64,000 nt of DNA. Source: Aeromicrobium terrae. GTDB taxonomy: Bacteria > Actinomycetota > Actinomycetes > Propionibacteriales > Nocardioidaceae. Positions 8,797-18,375 of this stretch are shown here, piece after piece. The notes under the pieces were generated by a model. It worked only from the letters and a program-made list of their open reading frames with translations. It did not search any database and was not told the origin of the DNA. The stretch spans positions 248,001 to 312,000 of the forward strand of contig NZ_VDUX01000003.1 of the NCBI RefSeq assembly GCF_008039565.1, written 5' to 3'. Positions within the stretch are counted from its first letter, which is position 1; each line of letters starts with the position of its first letter. Position numbers and translations under genes: made by a program.

Positions 8797-9354
8797 ATGG
8801 CGACAGTGAAAACTCCCGCCGAGGCGTGGATCAGTGCCGGCCTGCGCGCGCTCGCCCGCGGTGGTCCCGACGCCGTGCGGATCGAGCCGATCGCCGCCGA
8901 CCTCGGCGTCTCCAAGGGCGGCTTCTACTGGCACTTCGCCAACCGCGCGGCGTTCATCGAGCGCATGCTCGACACCTGGGAGAAGACGGTCGTCGAGGAT
9001 GTCATCGCCGAAATCGACAGCCACGGCGGTGCGCCGCGAGACCGCCTGCGAGAGCTGTTCCGGATGGCGCAGGCGTCAACACGGTCGACCGACGGCCTTG
9101 GCGTCGAGCTCGCGATCCGCGACTGGTCGCGTCGCGACAAGGCCGTGGCCAAGCGGCTGCGCGGCATCGACGACCGCCGCATGGCGTACATGCGTTCCCA
9201 GTTCTTGGAGTTCAGCGCCGACGACGAGGACGCCGAGGCCCGCGCCCTCCAGGTCTACGCGCTGATGGTCGGCGGCTACTTCATCGCCTCGTCGAACCCC
9301 GACCTGCCGCGAGCTCAGGTGGTGCGCCGGGCGCTCGAGCTCCTGCTCGCCTGA
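8797..9354 (+). CDS. TetR/AcrR family transcriptional regulator
   Basis: A 185-residue regulator. The N-terminal HTH is seen in EAWISAGLRALARGG, RIEPIAADLGVSKGGFYWHF and NRAAFIERMLDTWEK. The remaining helices form a ligand-binding domain of ordinary length. It is divergent from DUF2867 with two shared palindromes, so it probably represses that gene and itself. The ligand is unknown. The ATG at 8797 follows a -10-like box closely, with no clear ribosome site. Confidence 0.88.
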   Translation: MATVKTPAEAWISAGLRALARGGPDAVRIEPIAADLGVSKGGFYWHFANRAAFIERMLDTWEKTVVEDVIAEIDSHGGAPRDRLRELFRMAQASTRSTDGLGVELAIRDWSRRDKAVAKRLRGIDDRRMAYMRSQFLEFSADDEDAEARALQVYALMVGGYFIASSNPDLPRAQVVRRALELLLA

Positions 9355-9429: not shown

Positions 9430-12096
9430 TCATGCTCGTCGGTCAGGTTCCGGCTGCACGATCGACCGCGCAACGGCGAGATACCGCGCCAGGAAGACAT
9501 CCTCGGGCAGCTCGCCGTCCGAGTGATACCAGCTGGCCACGCCCAGACAGAGCGAGGTGATGGCCCGGCTCGCATCGATCGGGTAGGGAGTCTGGAACAG
9601 GCCGGCGGCCACGCCGTCGGAGATGACGACATCCAGCATCCGGTTCAGCTCCTCCTTGCGCGCCACGTAGCGAGCACGATGATCGGCGGAGAGGTTACGC
9701 AGCTCGTTCGCCGACAGCATGGCGCCCTTCTGCCGGTACATGTGGAACCGGAGCAGCGACTCCACGAGCAGGTCGAACTGCCCGGCCACGTCGTCGCCCG
9801 CCTCGGCTACTGCGAACCGGCTCCGCTCGATGAGCTCGTCGACCACGACCATCATGAGGTCGAAGAGGATGTCCTCCTTCGACTTGTAGTGGTGATACAA
9901 GCCGGGCACCGAAAGGCCACAGCGCTCAGCGAGCTGCCTGATCGAGGTGCCGTGGAACCCCTTCTCCGCGAACGTGTCGAGTGCAGCGGAGAGGATGCGG
10001 GAGATGCGCTGCTCCGAGTAGACCCGCCACGTCCGGTAGTCGTCGGTCGGTTCGACGTCGTCCTGACCGGCCGAGGCCGCACGCTCGCTCGCGAAGTTCA
10101 CGATCCAGTCCAGCGCCGCAGGATCATCGACGGCGGCCGCGCTGATCACCTCGCCGGTTCGTTGGCCTGCCAGGAGACGCTTGACCGGGACCTCGAGCTT
10201 CTTCCCGGTCTTGGTGTGCGGCAGGATCGGCGCCACGATGACCTCGTCCGGAACGTGTCGCGGAGAGGTGTGTTCGCGCAACCGATCCCTGACCCGCCGA
10301 TCGATCTCGGCCTCGTCGACGGCGTCTCGATCACCAGTCACGACGACGAACAGCGGCATCCAGTAGCCGCCGTCGGCACCCTCGACCCCGACCACCAGCG
10401 AGTCGAGGACCTCAGGCAAGGACTCGACGGCCTCGTAGATCTCGGCACTGCCGAGGCGGATCCCGTTGCGGTTCAGCGTCGCGTCTGACCTACCGTGGAT
10501 GATGATCGTGCCCCGGTCGGTCAGCGTGATCGAGTCGCCGTGTCGCCACACTCCCGGGAACTCGGCGAAGTAGGTGTCTCGGTAGGTAGAGCCGTCGGGG
10601 TCGTTCCAGAACCCGATCGGCATCGACGGCATCGGCTGCGTGATCACCATCTCGCCACTCACGCCCGGCGGAACCGGGCGTCCGTCATCACCCCACACCT
10701 CCAGCGCGACCCCGAGGGCCGGACCACTGATCTCCCCGTCGTAGACCGGCAGGATCGGGTTGCTCGAGACGAAGATGCCGACGATGTCGGTGCCACCGCT
10801 GGTCGAGCCGACCTGGACACTCTCACTGACGTGGTCGCGGATCCAGCGGTTGGCCGCCGAGGGCAGGATCGAACCCGTGACGCCGATCATCCGCATCTGC
10901 GAGAGATCGAGGTCACGGCCGGGCTCGCAACCCGCCTGTTCCGACGCCCGGAGGTAGCCGGGACTCGTCCCGAACACCGTGACGCCCAGGTCGGCAGCGA
11001 TCTGCCACAGCCGAGCGGCTGAGGGCTCGATCGGGTTCCCGTCGTAGAGCACGATCGTGGCCCCGTGCAACAGGCCACACACCTGCGCGTTCCACATCAT
11101 CCAGTTCGGGCTGGTGTACCAGAAGAAGATGTCGTCGGACCGAAGATCGAGGTGGAACCCCGGGGACGCGAACTGTTCCAGCAGGGCACCCCCATGACCG
11201 TGGACGATGCCCTTCGGCTTCCCCGTGGTGCCTGACGTGAACAACACCCACAAGGGGTGGTCGAAAGCCACCGGCACCACGTCGACATTCCCGACGCCGT
11301 CGACAGCCTCGTCCCACGTCATGGAGAAGTCGCCGTCGACCGGGAGGGACAGACCGGCGGTCGACACCGTGATGGTGTGTCGCACCGTCGGCAGCAGCTC
11401 ACGGAGAAGACGCACTTCATGGCGTTGGTCGTGAACGACGCCCTTGAAGAAGTAGCCGCCACCACAGATCAGCACCTTCGGCTCCAGCTGGGACAACCGG
11501 TCCGCGGCCGCCCGAGCGGTCAGGTCCAAGCCGGCCTGCGACCAGGTGGCGCCGATCCACGCGGTCGCCATGAACGCGATGACGCCTTCAATCGAGTTCG
11601 GGAGGTAGGCCACCACTCGGTCGCCGGTCTCGACGCCTAGGGCACGGAGCCGGGACGCCAGGGCCAGGACCCGGCGGCGAAGCTCCCCGTGCGAGATGGA
11701 GGTGGTGGCGCCGTCCTCAAGCACCATGACGACGGCGTCACGATCAGGATCAGGGCCACGCAGCAGGTGCTCGGCGAAGTTCAGCGTGCCGCCCGGGAAC
11801 CATCCGGTGTCCGGCATCGGCGCGCCGTCCCACACGGCGTCGGGCTCACGATGGAAGCGGACCTCGAAGTATCGCGCGACTGCCTCCCAGAATGCGTCCG
11901 GGTGCGACGCAGCCCAGTCCTGAATCTCGTGGAAGTCCGTGACGTCCTGGAACGACGCGACACCGTGGTCGATCAACCACCGTGCGAACGCGACGATCCG
12001 AGCGTTCTCGATCTGCTGTGGCGTCGGCACCCAGGACGGCTCGACCGGTTCCTCCATCACGCTCCGACTCAGGTCCGTGATCACGTTCTCGACCAT
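9430..12096 (-). CDS. Acetoacetyl-CoA synthetase fused to a TetR regulator
   Basis: One uninterrupted 888-residue frame holds a full acetoacetate-CoA ligase and a TetR protein. Residues 1-665 carry the adenylate-forming motifs: FTSGTTGKPKG (286-296), STSGGTDI (431-438), GRSDATLNRNG (535-545) and the catalytic-lysine tail TKTGKKLEVPVKR (628-640). After a short linker, residues 687-888 form a TetR regulator with the HTH in GTSIRQLAERCGLSVPGLYH. The enzyme would activate acetoacetate with ATP and CoA. It is the last gene of a minus-strand operon of monooxygenase and ABC importer. A sequencing-frame artefact joining two genes cannot be excluded. Confidence 0.85.
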   Translation of the reverse strand: MVENVITDLSRSVMEEPVEPSWVPTPQQIENARIVAFARWLIDHGVASFQDVTDFHEIQDWAASHPDAFWEAVARYFEVRFHREPDAVWDGAPMPDTGWFPGGTLNFAEHLLRGPDPDRDAVVMVLEDGATTSISHGELRRRVLALASRLRALGVETGDRVVAYLPNSIEGVIAFMATAWIGATWSQAGLDLTARAAADRLSQLEPKVLICGGGYFFKGVVHDQRHEVRLLRELLPTVRHTITVSTAGLSLPVDGDFSMTWDEAVDGVGNVDVVPVAFDHPLWVLFTSGTTGKPKGIVHGHGGALLEQFASPGFHLDLRSDDIFFWYTSPNWMMWNAQVCGLLHGATIVLYDGNPIEPSAARLWQIAADLGVTVFGTSPGYLRASEQAGCEPGRDLDLSQMRMIGVTGSILPSAANRWIRDHVSESVQVGSTSGGTDIVGIFVSSNPILPVYDGEISGPALGVALEVWGDDGRPVPPGVSGEMVITQPMPSMPIGFWNDPDGSTYRDTYFAEFPGVWRHGDSITLTDRGTIIIHGRSDATLNRNGIRLGSAEIYEAVESLPEVLDSLVVGVEGADGGYWMPLFVVVTGDRDAVDEAEIDRRVRDRLREHTSPRHVPDEVIVAPILPHTKTGKKLEVPVKRLLAGQRTGEVISAAAVDDPAALDWIVNFASERAASAGQDDVEPTDDYRTWRVYSEQRISRILSAALDTFAEKGFHGTSIRQLAERCGLSVPGLYHHYKSKEDILFDLMMVVVDELIERSRFAVAEAGDDVAGQFDLLVESLLRFHMYRQKGAMLSANELRNLSADHRARYVARKEELNRMLDVVISDGVAAGLFQTPYPIDASRAITSLCLGVASWYHSDGELPEDVFLARYLAVARSIVQPEPDRRA

Positions 12097-12112: not shown

Positions 12113-13288
12113 TCACGCTCGCCGGGGCCACAGCGAGCCCCGGGTGATCACGACATCCATGGCGACGGCCACCACGAGCACCCCACCTGTGGCGAAGTTC
12201 TGAACCTCAGGCGAGTATCCGAGGAGCTGCACACCATTGCTGATCGATCCGATCACCAGCGCGCCGAGGAGAGCGGACCAGACCGATCCTCGCCCGCCGA
12301 ACAGGCTGGTGCCACCCACGACCGCTGCCGCGATCGCATTCAGCATCAGGGGTCCTCCGCCTGACGAGTTCGACACACTCAGAAGCCTCGCCGCGTCGAC
12401 CACGCCCGCGATCGCTGCGCAGAACCCCAGGATCGCGAACGAGTAGATGATCATGCGACTCACCGGGATTCCCGCCCGCCTGGCCGCGTCCCGGTCACCG
12501 CCGACCGCATAGAGATGGATGCCATACCGGGTGCGCGTCGTGACGTACGCGGCGACGATCAGCATGGCACCGAGGATGACGACTGGCAGCGGGAGACCGT
12601 CGGCCCTGGACAGGACCGTCACACCGCCGAACACGGCCACACCGATGACCAGCGACAGGACACCGGCCCAGATCCGGTCGTTCGACGAGCCTCGGGCATG
12701 GATCCACCGGCTGATCGTGTAGCCGACCCAGACGACTCCGGCCACGAGGTAGGCGACTGTCGTCGGAACGTCCGCGCTCGCGATCTCGGCATAGTCCGTT
12801 CCGCCGACGCTGACGGTGAACTCCGGCGGCAGGACGACGAGCAGCAAGCCCTGGAACACCACCATGCCGCCCAGCGTGACGATCAGGGACGGCACTCCGA
12901 AGACCACGATCACGGCTTGGATCACCATGGCGATCATGCCGAGTGCGATGCCCGCCGCCAAGGCCAGATAGATGTTCCATCCCGACGTGACGGCATAGTT
13001 CGCCACGACCGTCGCGCAGACGCCCGACAGGATCGCCGACGACAGGTCGATCTCGCCGACGAGAAGGACGAACACGATGCCCAGGGCGAGCATCGCGGTG
13101 GTGGCGATCTGAAGGATCAAGTTGGTGATGTTCTGCGAGCTGAGAAATGCCTCGTTGCGCGTGTAGAAGAAAAGCCAGATCGCCCCGAGAACCATCAGGA
13201 CCGGAATGTTGCTGAGACGGTCCTCGAAGATCCCCGCGAGCCGCGACCAGGCTGGCGCGCCGTCAGTGCGGCCGATCTGGGTGCTCAT
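12113..13288 (-). CDS. Sugar ABC transporter permease (XylH/RbsC-like)
   Basis: A 391-residue inner-membrane permease with about ten hydrophobic segments. Family signatures are LALGIVFVLLVGEIDLSSA and VGGTSLFGGRGSVWSALLGAL, seen in CUT2-class permeases for xylose, ribose and similar compounds. The ATG overlaps the stop of the ATPase gene (13285-13288), and the next gene starts 16 bp downstream. It probably forms the channel for the substrate bound by the 14153-15295 lipoprotein. CUT2 importers also carry non-sugar compounds, so the substrate is open. Confidence 0.9.
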   Translation of the reverse strand: MSTQIGRTDGAPAWSRLAGIFEDRLSNIPVLMVLGAIWLFFYTRNEAFLSSQNITNLILQIATTAMLALGIVFVLLVGEIDLSSAILSGVCATVVANYAVTSGWNIYLALAAGIALGMIAMVIQAVIVVFGVPSLIVTLGGMVVFQGLLLVVLPPEFTVSVGGTDYAEIASADVPTTVAYLVAGVVWVGYTISRWIHARGSSNDRIWAGVLSLVIGVAVFGGVTVLSRADGLPLPVVILGAMLIVAAYVTTRTRYGIHLYAVGGDRDAARRAGIPVSRMIIYSFAILGFCAAIAGVVDAARLLSVSNSSGGGPLMLNAIAAAVVGGTSLFGGRGSVWSALLGALVIGSISNGVQLLGYSPEVQNFATGGVLVVAVAMDVVITRGSLWPRRA

Positions 13289-14073
13289 GCGACACCCTCG
13301 TGTGCGCCGGTGATCGCAGCGACGAGGTCGCTGGACGTGTAGTCGCCGCGGGAGAACTCCGCAACCTTCGACCCGAGCCGAAGGACCACCACGCGATCGG
13401 CCACGTGCTGGACGTCCTTGAGGTCGTGAGAGATCACCAGGACGCCTCGGTTGTCCTCCTTCAGTCGCAGGATCAGATCGAGCACCTCAGCGCGTTGCGA
13501 GACCCCCAACGCTGCCGTGGGCTCGTCGAGCAACACGAGGCTCGGATCGGAGACCAGCGCCCGGCAGATGGCGATTCCTTGCCGCTGCCCACCGGACATG
13601 CCCCCGACGGGCGCCGTGAAGGACCGCAGTCGCACGGACATGCTGTCCAGGACCTCGCGCGCTCGGCGCTCCATGGCACGCCGACGCAATGTCCGCCCCC
13701 TCCACCAGGGATCCGTCTCTTCCAGGCCGAGGAAGAGGTTCTTGACGGCGTCCAGGTTGTCGCACAGCGAAAGGTCCTGGTAGACGGTGTGGATTCCGAC
13801 CGCCGCGGCGGCGCGGGGCGAATCCAGTCGCACCTCGACACCGTTGACGTGCAGGACGCCACTGTCGGGGCGCTGGACGCCTGAGACGACGTTCACGAGC
13901 GTCGACTTGCCAGCACCGTTGTCACCCACGAGAGCGATCACCTCTCCCCGTCGCAGGTCGAGATCGACCTCGTGGAGGGCCCGGACGCCGCCGAAATGCT
14001 TGGACACACCGGAGATCTGGAGGAATGGGGTCGTCGTCGCGCTGTCGGCCGATGGTGGCACGGCGGGAGGCAT
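13285..14073 (-). CDS. Sugar ABC transporter ATP-binding protein, single-domain (XylG-like)
   Basis: A 262-residue ATPase with Walker A GDNGAGKST, signature MSGGQRQ and Walker B VLLDEPTAAL, followed by VISHDLKDV. The signature begins with Met instead of the usual Leu. CUT2 ATPases are normally double (about 500 residues), but this one has a single nucleotide domain and would act as a homodimer. The start is ATG 14073; the longer open frame reads through an intercistronic hairpin. It overlaps the permease gene. Confidence 0.9.
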   Translation of the reverse strand: MPPAVPPSADSATTTPFLQISGVSKHFGGVRALHEVDLDLRRGEVIALVGDNGAGKSTLVNVVSGVQRPDSGVLHVNGVEVRLDSPRAAAAVGIHTVYQDLSLCDNLDAVKNLFLGLEETDPWWRGRTLRRRAMERRAREVLDSMSVRLRSFTAPVGGMSGGQRQGIAICRALVSDPSLVLLDEPTAALGVSQRAEVLDLILRLKEDNRGVLVISHDLKDVQHVADRVVVLRLGSKVAEFSRGDYTSSDLVAAITGAHEGVA

Positions 14074-14097
14074 GTGAGGTCCTTTGGTCGGGGTGAT

Positions 14098-14131
14098 GGC
14101 GGGGCGGCCGTGGAGGTACGACCGCCCCGCC
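14098..14131. terminator. Intercistronic hairpin after the substrate-binding protein gene
   Basis: GGCGGGGCGG (14098-14107) pairs perfectly with CCGCCCCGCC (14122-14131). An inner CGT/ACG pair leaves a 6-nt loop. It lies between the binding-protein stop and the ATPase start and has no T-run after it. Such hairpins commonly cause partial termination or 3' protection, raising binding-protein levels over transporter levels. Confidence 0.6.
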
Positions 14132-14152
14132 GATCGAGGCAGATCGGCCGGA

Positions 14153-15295
14153 CTACCCGACCTTCTCCTTGCAGGTCGGCGTGTCCTTCGCCGGGCCGGT
14201 GCAGATCTGCTTCCAGGTGAAGATGCCGAGATCGACGGCGGTCTGGACGGCGTCACCGGGATCCTTGCCCTTCTCCAGGTGGATCAACGTCGACGGAAGC
14301 TTGGCGGTCGGCACCTGGGCGCCGCCGTTGTCGACCACGTCCTTCACCAGGTCGGCCGGCGGCTTGTCGCCCGCGATGGCAGCCAGGGTGATCTTCGCGG
14401 CCGCCTCGGCCTCGACGGAGAACGCCTTGAGCACGTTGTCCTGCTGGTCGCCGGTGAGCATGTACTGCAGGCCGGTCAGCTCCGGATTCTGGCCGCCGTA
14501 GACAGGGATCTTCGCGTCCTTGCTCTTGAGAGCGGCGATGACACCTGCCGTGATGCCGTCGTAGAAGCCGAGGAACGCATCGACCTTGCCCTGCGTCTTC
14601 GTCAGGCACTGGTCAGCCGCCTTCTGAGCGTTGTCGGGCGCCCAGTCCTTCACGTAGTCCTCGCAGACGACCTCGATGGAGCCGTCGTCGATGAGGGGCT
14701 TGAGCGCACTGTCCTGACCCTTGAGCATCTGAGTGGTGTAGACGTCGCCCTTGTTGCCGTAGAGACGAGCGATCTTGACCGGGGTGTCACCGAGTGCCCC
14801 GCTCTTGACCTGCGAGGCGAAGTAGTCACCCTGCAGCACGCCGACGGCGTCCGGATCGAAGATGACCTGCGCGTACATCTCACCCTTCAGCGGTGGGTTC
14901 TCGTAGCCGATGACGGGGACCTTCGCGGCCTTGGCCGCGTTCAGCAGGCCCTCGCTGGTGTTCGGATCTGCGGCGACCACGACCAGCGCATCCGCACCGG
15001 CAGCGATCGCGGCGTTCGCCTGCGACAGCTGCGTGGCAGAGTCGCCCGCGGCGTTGACGAACTTCACCTCGACGTCGCCATCGAGCTTCTGGATGGCCGC
15101 CTTGAAGTCGGGACCGTCCTGCTCGATGTATCGCGTCGGCGTGGTGTTCGGCGCCATGAAGTACACCAGCTTCTTGTCGCCGCCCCCGCTCTTGTCATCC
15201 CCCGAGCTTCCCCCACAGGCCGACAGCACCAGGCTTGCGCCGGCACCGATCGCGAGGATCTTCAGCGCCACGCGCCACCTCTTGGTCTGGGACAT
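14153..15295 (-). CDS. Sugar ABC transporter substrate-binding lipoprotein (XylF-like)
   Basis: A 380-residue secreted lipoprotein. The signal peptide ends in the lipobox LSAC with Cys about residue 27, followed by a Gly/Ser/Asp linker. The mature part is a periplasmic-binding type 1 fold (DGDVEVKFVNAAGDSATQLSQ, DALVVVAADPNTS, KVDAFLGFYDGITAGV) resembling xylose-binding XylF. The ATG at 15295 has AAGGAG upstream. It delivers a substrate to the permease/ATPase encoded next in the operon. The monooxygenase gene precedes it by 93 bp. Confidence 0.9.
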   Translation of the reverse strand: MSQTKRWRVALKILAIGAGASLVLSACGGSSGDDKSGGGDKKLVYFMAPNTTPTRYIEQDGPDFKAAIQKLDGDVEVKFVNAAGDSATQLSQANAAIAAGADALVVVAADPNTSEGLLNAAKAAKVPVIGYENPPLKGEMYAQVIFDPDAVGVLQGDYFASQVKSGALGDTPVKIARLYGNKGDVYTTQMLKGQDSALKPLIDDGSIEVVCEDYVKDWAPDNAQKAADQCLTKTQGKVDAFLGFYDGITAGVIAALKSKDAKIPVYGGQNPELTGLQYMLTGDQQDNVLKAFSVEAEAAAKITLAAIAGDKPPADLVKDVVDNGGAQVPTAKLPSTLIHLEKGKDPGDAVQTAVDLGIFTWKQICTGPAKDTPTCKEKVG

Positions 15296-15388
15296 CGCTT
15301 GCTCCTTCACCTATTTCCTACGAGCTGAGTGTTGACGACGGATGACGCCAGAGCGCCGCGCCGCCGCTGCCCGCGAACGGGCCGGTGT

Positions 15389-17152
15389 TCAACGGGGCAC
15401 GACTCCCTTCTGTCGGGCAGTGATCTGCAGGGCGAGATGCTTGGAGTAGATGCGCACCCACGCGAGCGGGCCGGCCATGAACCAGAAGCCGGGCGCCCCG
15501 GTGCGCCGGTACAGGCCACTGATCTCGCCGTCCTCGTCGATGCCCAGGACAGGCGGACAACGGTCGGCGACCTCGTCACCGAACAGCCGCCTCGCGGTCT
15601 CGCGCATGTTCTTGTACCCGGTCGCGAGCACGACGAGGTCCGCATCGATCTCGCGGCCGTCCGTCAGGCGCACTCCTGCGTCGGTGAACTCCGCCAGACC
15701 GGCACCCTGGACCAAGCTGACCTTGCGCTCGGCGATCAGCCGCGAGCAGCCGACATCGATGTAGTAGCCACCGCCACGAGCCAACGCGTACCCCATGAGG
15801 CCGGTGCCGTCCGGCCCGTCGTTGCGCCGGAACCCGACGGCATCCAGGGAGGCCAGCAGGTCGGCATCGAGCGCGGCGGTCGCCTTGGTTCCCTCGACGG
15901 CGTACTCCAGCACCAACGGCCACGGGGTGGCGCTCGCCATCAGATCGGCGTACTCGGTCGGCGGGCCGCCCTCGACGAAGTTGGCGCCGAAGAGCGCCGG
16001 GATCCCGAACTCCTGGCTCATGATGTACGTGGACGAGCGCTGCACCAGCGTGACGTCGGCGCCCGACTCGAAGAGGTCCTGGACGATGTCGTGCGCGCTG
16101 TTGCCGGCGCCGATGACGACCACCTTCTTGCCGCTCCAGTCTGCGCCCGACGTGTGGGCGCTGGAGTGGTAGGTGACGCCTGCGAATCGATCACGGCCCG
16201 GCACCTCGGGAAGGTTCACCTCAGCTGCCGCACCGGTTGCCAGGATCACGTCCTGGGGGCGCACCACCCGCTCGCCGTGCGGAGTGCGGATCCGAAGGGT
16301 CCAGCGGCCGTCCCCGGCGTCGTACGAGCTGTCGAACATGTCCGCCTCGGTCCAAACGTTGAGCTCCATCGCCTCGGCGTAGAACTCGAACCAGTCGGCG
16401 ATCTTGTCCTTCGCGGAGTAGATCGGCCATGAGTCCGGGAACGGCAGGTAGGGGAGGTGGTCGGCCCAGACCGGGTCGTGCAGGACCAGAGAGTGGTACC
16501 GCTTGCGCCAGCCGTCACCCACCCGCTCGCTCTTCTCGAGCACCAAGGTGTCCAGACCCATGAGGGTGAGGTTGGCTGCGACGGCCAACCCACCCTGCCC
16601 GGCACCGATCACGACCACGTCCGGTTCGCGATCCGCGAAGCTCACGTCGACGAGACGCTGGTCCTTCCAGTTGTGCGTCGATCTCGCCCCCTCCACGTGC
16701 CGGGGCCCGATCGGACGCCGGCTGCCGAGCGCGCGCTCGTGACCCTTCACGTCCTCCATGCCGGTCATCACGGTGGACGCCCGCCAGCCACCGTCGACCT
16801 GGGTCAGCCGTGCCACTCCTCGGCACCATGCCGTGGTGGTCTCAAAGGTGAAGACACCTTCGACTCCGCCCTCGATCGGGTGCGGCTCGAATCCAGCATC
16901 GAGCTCAAAGCGGGTTGGCCGAGCTTGCCGCACGTGGACGTCGAGCAGCGACGTGATGCGCTCCGAGCCGTGATACGTCCCGAGGTCCCACGACAGGGCC
17001 AACAGGTCCCGCCACCAGCACTCCTTCGTCAGCGTTGCCGTGGCCTCCGTGACGGATCCCGACTCCATCGCCGCAGCGAAGTCCCGAAGCCAGTCAACGA
17101 ATACGCGCGCAGCATCGTGGTCGACCGCAACGCGAGTGGTATCCACCGACAT
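15389..17152 (-). CDS. Flavin-containing monooxygenase with N-terminal NTF2-like domain
   Basis: A 587-residue protein. Residues about 1-140 form an NTF2/SnoaL-like domain. The rest is a group B flavoprotein with FAD motif VIGAGQGG (181-188), a Baeyer-Villiger/FMO-type fingerprint FAGVTYHSSAH (323-333) and NADPH motif GAGNSA (348-353). It should oxygenate a ketone, amine or sulfide with NADPH and O2. It is the first gene of the ABC importer/acetoacetyl-CoA synthetase operon, so a ketone substrate is plausible. A strong palindrome lies 18 bp upstream. Confidence 0.88.
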   Translation of the reverse strand: MSVDTTRVAVDHDAARVFVDWLRDFAAAMESGSVTEATATLTKECWWRDLLALSWDLGTYHGSERITSLLDVHVRQARPTRFELDAGFEPHPIEGGVEGVFTFETTTAWCRGVARLTQVDGGWRASTVMTGMEDVKGHERALGSRRPIGPRHVEGARSTHNWKDQRLVDVSFADREPDVVVIGAGQGGLAVAANLTLMGLDTLVLEKSERVGDGWRKRYHSLVLHDPVWADHLPYLPFPDSWPIYSAKDKIADWFEFYAEAMELNVWTEADMFDSSYDAGDGRWTLRIRTPHGERVVRPQDVILATGAAAEVNLPEVPGRDRFAGVTYHSSAHTSGADWSGKKVVVIGAGNSAHDIVQDLFESGADVTLVQRSSTYIMSQEFGIPALFGANFVEGGPPTEYADLMASATPWPLVLEYAVEGTKATAALDADLLASLDAVGFRRNDGPDGTGLMGYALARGGGYYIDVGCSRLIAERKVSLVQGAGLAEFTDAGVRLTDGREIDADLVVLATGYKNMRETARRLFGDEVADRCPPVLGIDEDGEISGLYRRTGAPGFWFMAGPLAWVRIYSKHLALQITARQKGVVPR

Positions 17153-17169: not shown

Positions 17170-17193
17170 CCGACCGAGCGCTCGCTCGGTCGG
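17170..17193. promoter_or_regulatory. Perfect 24-bp palindrome, TetR-type operator
   Basis: CCGACCGAGCG and CGCTCGGTCGG, separated by CT, form 11-bp perfect arms. It lies 18 bp upstream of the monooxygenase ATG at the head of the minus-strand operon. Palindromes with GACCGAGCG-type half-sites are common TetR targets in actinomycetes. The best candidate binder is the TetR half of the acetoacetyl-CoA synthetase fusion at the operon's end; an effect of the AraC regulator cannot be excluded. Confidence 0.7.
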
Positions 17194-17300
17194 CTGAGTG
17201 TGACACGGCCCACACAGGCTTGGCAAGGGTTCTCGGGCGAAGGCCATGAGCACGTCGCGACGAGGCAGTGCAGCTGTCGACCGGCCGCGAGGGATCCTCG

Positions 17301-18305
17301 TCAGCCAGAGCCGCGTGCCGCACGAACCTCCTTCGGCGGCGCGTCGAACCAGCGACGGCACGCGCGGGTGAACGCGCTCTGCTCGCTGAACCCGAGGAGC
17401 CCGGACAGCTGACCGAACGACATGTCCGTCTCCTGGAGCCGCCGCAGCGCCTCCTCGCGACGCACCTCGTCGACGAGCGTGGCGAACGTCGTGCCCTGCT
17501 CGGCGAGCTGGCGCTGGAGCGTGCGTCGATGTTGCGCGAGATGGCCGGCGACGAGGTCGAGGTCGAGCGTCCCGGTCGGGAGCATCCGGCGAATCAGCTG
17601 CACCACGGCGTCCGTCGTCGCGGTCTCGACCGGGACGGCGATCGTGCTCAGGTAGTCCTGCACGACCGCGTGCACCGAGCCGTCGGCGCTCAGCCGCCGG
17701 GTCAGCACGGACGCGGGGAACCGGAAGCCGTAGACGTCGGCGGAGCAGTCCACACGGCAGCCGAAGTATTCCGCGTAGCTCTCCGGGTCGACGAGCGGCT
17801 CGTGCCGCAGCTGTACCGAGACCGGGTGGAAGTCGGATCCGGCAAGCAGCTGGAACACCCGGACCGAGACGCCCAGCCCGAGCTCGGCCGCCTGGCGGTG
17901 CGGCGGTGGCCGCTCGTCCACCAGGCGCCAGGTGAGCTGAGCCATCGACTCGCCCGGGACCGCCTGGACTCCCACGGCGAGCGCCGGGCTGTAGACGTTC
18001 ATGTACCGCTCGATCGACTGCAGCGCGGCGCCCACGGTGGCCGCGGTCCGGGCCGCGACGCCGAGCGGTCCGAGGATCTCCAGGCCCTGACGCTCGGCGA
18101 GCCGCCGGCCGAGGTCGCCCGCACCGGTCGCCGTGGCCGCCGCCTCGAGCACCGCGACGACGCTGCGGTAGCTGATGAAGCTGTCGTGGTCGCCGATCGT
18201 GTCGGGGCTGAGGTGAGCCATCCGCAGCAGCGCGTCACTGTCGCCGCCGAGGTCGTCGACGAGCTCGCGAAAGCCCAGCAGCGACGTGCCACGGATCAAC
18301 GCCAT
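17301..18305 (-). CDS. AraC family transcriptional regulator
   Basis: A 334-residue regulator from ATG 18305; a TTG at 18341 would add 12 residues. An N-terminal arabinose-binding-like domain (RGTSLLGFRELVDDLGGD, QSIERYMNVYSPA) precedes a C-terminal double HTH (HRRTLQRQLAEQGTTF, EEALRRLQETDMSFGQLSGLLGFSEQSAFTRAC). This OruR-type architecture often controls lipid or steroid catabolic genes. It diverges from the NTF2-fold gene at 18376 and is downstream-facing of the monooxygenase operon. Confidence 0.9.
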   Translation of the reverse strand: MALIRGTSLLGFRELVDDLGGDSDALLRMAHLSPDTIGDHDSFISYRSVVAVLEAAATATGAGDLGRRLAERQGLEILGPLGVAARTAATVGAALQSIERYMNVYSPALAVGVQAVPGESMAQLTWRLVDERPPPHRQAAELGLGVSVRVFQLLAGSDFHPVSVQLRHEPLVDPESYAEYFGCRVDCSADVYGFRFPASVLTRRLSADGSVHAVVQDYLSTIAVPVETATTDAVVQLIRRMLPTGTLDLDLVAGHLAQHRRTLQRQLAEQGTTFATLVDEVRREEALRRLQETDMSFGQLSGLLGFSEQSAFTRACRRWFDAPPKEVRAARGSG

Positions 18306-18375
18306 GTCGTCCAGAGTCAAGAACGTGTCGTGTGAAGTCAAGACTCAGACCCCATCCCGTCGTCACCGTGGAGTC

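Follow-up and report, generated by a model that had tools for sequence, protein, structure and literature searches.

A coenzyme A ligase fused in frame to a TetR-type regulator, probably of its own operon, in Aeromicrobium terrae and its relatives

We analysed a stretch of 64,000 nucleotides of Aeromicrobium terrae (contig NZ_VDUX01000003.1, positions 248,001 to 312,000; hereafter the window), a soil actinobacterium whose 3.1-Mb genome is assembled in 14 contigs. A single gene on the minus strand of the window (9430-12096, 888 amino acids) encodes an acetoacetate-coenzyme A (CoA)-ligase-type enzyme, a short linker and a TetR repressor. Our comparisons revealed the fusion, its conservation, the operon to which it belongs, its association with a predicted operator and purifying selection, all at the level of sequence. 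We consider it probable, with considerable room for other explanations, that the protein is a bifunctional CoA ligase and autorepressor of its own operon, relieved by a CoA ester that is probably made by the ligase.

Results

The frame at 9430-12096 (minus strand) stays open for 888 residues and then stops. The first-pass annotation had described a complete ligase and a complete TetR protein with an intact helix-turn-helix (HTH) in this frame, and profile searches agreed. The enzyme part, of the ANL adenylating type (residues ~1-675, 10072-12096, minus strand), scored 802.9 bits against NCBIfam PRK03584 (cut-off 639) and 694.8 bits against TIGR01217 (cut-off 520.9), both over residues 19-672. 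It contains the adenylation motifs and catalytic-lysine segment of such ligases (SGTTGKPKG, GRSDATLNRNG and HTKTGKKLEVPVK). The same stretches align with the acetoacetyl-CoA synthetase of Streptomyces lividans (4wd1), to which the enzyme part is alike over residues 16-661 (phmmer, 637 bits); unlike the window protein, however, 4wd1 has no TetR part. The linker, expected to be about 20 residues long, measured about 22 (residues ~676-697, 10006-10071, minus strand). In the TetR part (residues ~698-888, 9433-10005, minus strand), TetR_N (701-745) and TetR_C_24 (769-878) both exceeded their Pfam gathering scores. An AlphaFold2 model built from 30 sequences (mean predicted local distance difference test, pLDDT, 74.4; predicted template modelling score, pTM, 0.68) places the last helix of the enzyme at 659-675 and the first TetR residues in helical form from 698 on, whereas pLDDT stays below 50 at 677-700; its top PDB fold match was again 4wd1 (E 2.2e-57).

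The join is shared by other genomes. In a scan with one genome per species, in which counts refer to the best 80 loci, the ligase and a matching TetR occurred together in 16 loci (4 fused, 12 separate). A search of 341 genomes of the window's family gave 16 genomes with E ≤1e-200: 12 fused (window counted), 2 split and 2 with the ligase alone (G025 and G212; 19 kb examined). When both searches were pooled, 24 distinct operon genomes were obtained, 12 fused and 12 split; every fused genome belongs to the window's family, and the split ones are mostly Micromonosporaceae. Since the join lies in an open frame in 12 of the 24, window included, a local frameshift error is excluded. A sequencing error or false frame, the concern attached to the first-pass annotation, was thus ruled out by the identical join in 12 single proteins carrying both domains, and an assembly or frameshift artefact is practically out of the question. 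As for close relatives, the nearest named one at the fused gene, Aeromicrobium ginsengisoli (76%), has the fusion; however, only two genomes of the genus carry it (the window's and G021). The gene order monooxygenase, binding protein, ATPase, permease, ligase, TetR was kept in 24/24 genomes as far as the sequence reaches. All six parts were present in 22; the loci L160 and L046 run into contig ends, and in the L160 genome the first two genes and the palindrome described below lie on another contig.

The split genomes suggest how the fusion arose. In 9 of the 12, the ligase stop and the TetR start share 4 bases; in the remaining three, TetR starts 6, 7 or 72 bases beyond the ligase. Because the split genes are adjacent and mostly overlap in this way, the fusion appears to be an in-place join of a formerly coupled gene pair, and the split form, being more widely spread, would have come first. 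Across 9 pairs of fused genes, the ratio of non-synonymous to synonymous substitution rates (dN/dS) was ≤0.20 for the ligase, HTH and TetR C-terminal parts, a sign at the sequence level that purifying selection acts on both ligase and TetR, and ranged from 0 to ~0.67 for the short linker. The linker measures 22-24 residues among fused relatives, and 11 of the 12 share a P-T-D-x-Y-x-x-W-R stretch. Free trees set two fused clades apart (Aeromicrobium, 2 genomes; Nocardioides/Pimelobacter, 10), requiring two changes, and a single fused clade was not rejected by the approximately unbiased test (p 0.243; LG+G4, no mixture); the likeness of the linkers hints at a single origin. We failed to detect a plasmid-borne fusion among the 60 matches listed of 135 (at 1e-50, 72,556 records), and all 135 were below 60% identity to the query. 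At least five plasmid matches extend over 80% or more of the query, reaching residue 751 or 790; in these five, the annotation following the ligase is a short-chain dehydrogenase/reductase oxidoreductase or an acyl-CoA thioesterase rather than a TetR.

A few single loci deviate from the general pattern. G025, a genome of the window's genus, has a ligase of 62-63% identity (L163:12207-14264) outside such an operon, without TetR and adjoining a P450 gene. In Paractinoplanes, an insert of some 350 bases interrupts the ligase match of L060 and L062, and the TetR of L049 starts with the repeated peptide SRPGSSTEEAQGQAA.

The fused gene had been proposed to close an operon that begins with a TetR-type palindrome, and both the gene order and the site bear this out. 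A 24-base palindrome, the predicted operator, lies at 17170-17193, upstream of the first operon gene, the monooxygenase, with the 18-mer core ACCGAGCGAGCGCTCGGT at 17173-17190. It begins 6 bases past a promoter predicted by consensus match (17197-17226, minus strand), in which TTGCCA (17221-17226) and CACACT (17197-17202) are separated by 18 bases. The element ACCGAGCGAKCGCTCGG was found upstream of the monooxygenase in 21/21 loci with that region, always 4-14 bases behind a promoter-like hexamer pair, though the consensus is weak in several. In anchored columns the core was 0.97 alike, whereas the flanks of 60 bases reached only 0.33-0.36. When no anchor was used, palindrome 16-mers (≤2 mismatches) were found upstream of the monooxygenase in 20/20 other loci, whereas the median 16-mer from the same 150 bp was found in none; the palindrome is therefore more than chance. 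A split locus, L151, has a second copy (L151:8698-8713) roughly 60 bases past the end of its TetR gene.

The own genome of the window protein has one perfect site, and the next best has two mismatches. In the family, the 18-mer occurred in 22 of 341 genomes: 14/14 operon genomes and 8/327 others. An acyl-CoA synthetase adjoins the site in five of these eight (L185, L186, L188, L189, L191; the L186 neighbourhood was judged from blastp and layout only) and an acyl-CoA dehydrogenase gene in three (L187, L190, L192). In 7/8 the site also adjoins a TetR that shares 39-51% identity with the one in the window; in L191, where the site is 1.6 kb from the contig end, no homologous TetR was found within the 9 kb examined. 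This independent pairing of site, TetR and acyl-CoA genes is the best evidence in the analysis: it argues strongly that the palindrome is the operator read by the fused TetR, and it suggests that the TetR subfamily serves acyl-CoA metabolism. An operator can thereby be assigned to the subfamily, together with acyl-CoA as the likely class of effector.

Discussion

From these results we infer DNA binding, repression, a CoA-ester effector and, if there is one, a benefit of the tether, which may work together as follows. The TetR part, as a dimer, would block the monooxygenase-importer-ligase operon by binding the palindrome that lies immediately downstream of its promoter. The imported compound would then be processed, the ligase or the next step would produce a CoA ester, and binding of this ester to the TetR C-terminal domain would free the operator. 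The fusion would set one sensor per enzyme and may also put the sensor beside the source of its signal.

Whether the tether matters at all can be argued both ways. The fusion could be structurally neutral, the outcome of a lost stop codon between two translationally coupled genes; its TetR would then act just like the free TetR of the relatives, without crosstalk, and enzyme and repressor would be kept at 1:1. Operon and operator are the same in the split relatives, most of which show the 4-base overlap, and the linker is modelled at low confidence, all of which weighs against a functional role for the join; we give this explanation slightly less than an even chance. On the other side stand the retention of the join in two clades, purifying selection, the narrow range of linker lengths and the shared linker stretch. 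However, persistence is only a weak sign of benefit and may simply reflect descent. As fused and split versions of the operon coexist with the same operator, the effect of the tether can be asked in matched proteins.

The nature of the effector is also subject to more than one interpretation. A CoA ester is favoured, with fair confidence, because homologues of the TetR adjoin acyl-CoA genes and because its fold neighbours AibR, KstR2 and FadR (5k7h, 4w97, 3whc; 19-23% identity to the TetR part) bind CoA esters. These three chains stand alone, whereas the window TetR is tethered to an enzyme. The TetR could instead sense the imported compound or the monooxygenase product, since the operon has an importer and a monooxygenase for small molecules and TetR pockets are versatile. 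Yet the homologues with the identical operator adjoin acyl-CoA synthetase or dehydrogenase genes in 8/8 cases, and L187, L190 and L192 have no importer among the genes examined beside the site, so we regard such an effector as unlikely, though not negligibly so. The idea that the TetR is always paired with an acyl-CoA synthetase was rejected (3 of 28 wider relatives); the motif test on these 28 covered about 1.5 kb on each side. If a CoA ester is indeed the effector, the protein would be a compact natural biosensor that produces its own inducer.

BirA and PutA are known examples of one polypeptide that is both an enzyme and the repressor of its own pathway, and BirA also forms an acyl adenylate. 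Their DNA-binding domains and enzymes are unrelated to those of the window protein, whose regulator is a C-terminal TetR. Unlike in that comparison, split ancestor-like pairs survive among the relatives of the window protein. A stricter form of self-sensing, in which the ligase passes its acyl adenylate or CoA ester to the TetR within one polypeptide or dimer, seems doubtful at present. If true, transcription of the pathway would follow the turnover of the enzyme rather than the bulk pool of the metabolite, and a BirA-like logic would have been reached independently by fusion of an ANL synthetase and a TetR.

It is very unlikely that internal initiation or linker cleavage yields a separate TetR protein, whether as an additional or as the main product. 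The flexible linker (pLDDT <50) would allow it, in-frame GTG, ATG or TTG codons occur near the junction in 12/12 fused genes, and L155 has a GTG at +14 after AGGAG, though inside the first TetR helix. However, among in-frame starts between -45 and +12 codons around the TetR match, none in the 12 fused genes exceeds 3 Shine-Dalgarno bases, and the window has no candidate start between -20 and +30 codons. By comparison, 7/12 free TetR genes have 4-6 Shine-Dalgarno bases; the other 5/12 have 0-3, so the contrast is incomplete.

That the enzyme uses acetoacetate is a guess from family membership only, because the genome holds a second ligase (L002, 44% identical) and because 10 fixed positions separate the 22 operon-type ligases from 92 other (canonical) ligases. 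Among these substitutions are N331, Q338 and C340 in the segment PNWMMWNAQVC, and in view of the ten differences from canonical relatives the acid used may not be the same.

A report of a ligase-TetR fusion was not found in the openly accessible literature, which mostly excludes subscription papers. With regard to the earlier statement that enzyme-TetR fusions of this kind are unusual, TetR proteins joined to further companion domains have been documented, in 70 kinds (PMC5882156); thus only this particular pairing looks new.

Other genes of the operon and its surroundings

The first operon gene (15389-17152, minus strand) encodes a flavin monooxygenase that resembles, along its entire length and with the N-terminal extension included, the type II flavin monooxygenase (FMO) JsFMO (8acs); the alignment spans residues 25-584 of 587 (421.6 bits). 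An HD pair and a GYYIDVG stretch align with 8acs; we infer that they carry the catalytic residues reported for JsFMO, if the chain numbering is offset by 16. The type II motif is printed as FxGxxxHxxx[YF][KR] in the JsFMO article (PMC10028610). The window protein has FAGVTYHSSAHT, with H where this printed motif ends in [YF][KR], and the aligned 8acs has the same H. A type II flavin monooxygenase tied to an importer and a CoA ligase narrows the possible pathways.

Domain matches and conserved places identified the importer genes, all on the minus strand: a Peripla_BP_4 substrate-binding protein of the sugar type (14153-15310), closest to sugar-binding proteins, a single-domain ATP-binding cassette (ABC) ATPase (longest frame, 13285-14256) and a BPD_transp_2 ABC permease (12113-13288). 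The longest ATPase frame overlaps the binding-protein gene, so its true start is probably further in. This ATPase carries a single ABC domain, and its match to two-domain ATPases of sugar importers is confined to their N-terminal half.

No clue to the pathway substrate came from the neighbourhood: in four loci, ten flanking genes were assigned to DNA repair, kinase, hydrolase, P450 and further unrelated families. As to a steroid link, neither 'acetoacet' nor 'Baeyer-Villiger' nor 'sugar ABC' occurred in the passages searched of a Nocardioides simplex transcriptome study (PMC7807495). An AraC-type regulator (Arabinose_bd and HTH_18; 17301-18341, minus strand), which lies immediately upstream of the operon in the window, had no match in the other 23 operon loci. 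At the opposite end, a second TetR-like gene on the plus strand, judged by eye, is convergent with the fused gene, and its frame ends at 9354, 75 bases from the stop of the fusion.
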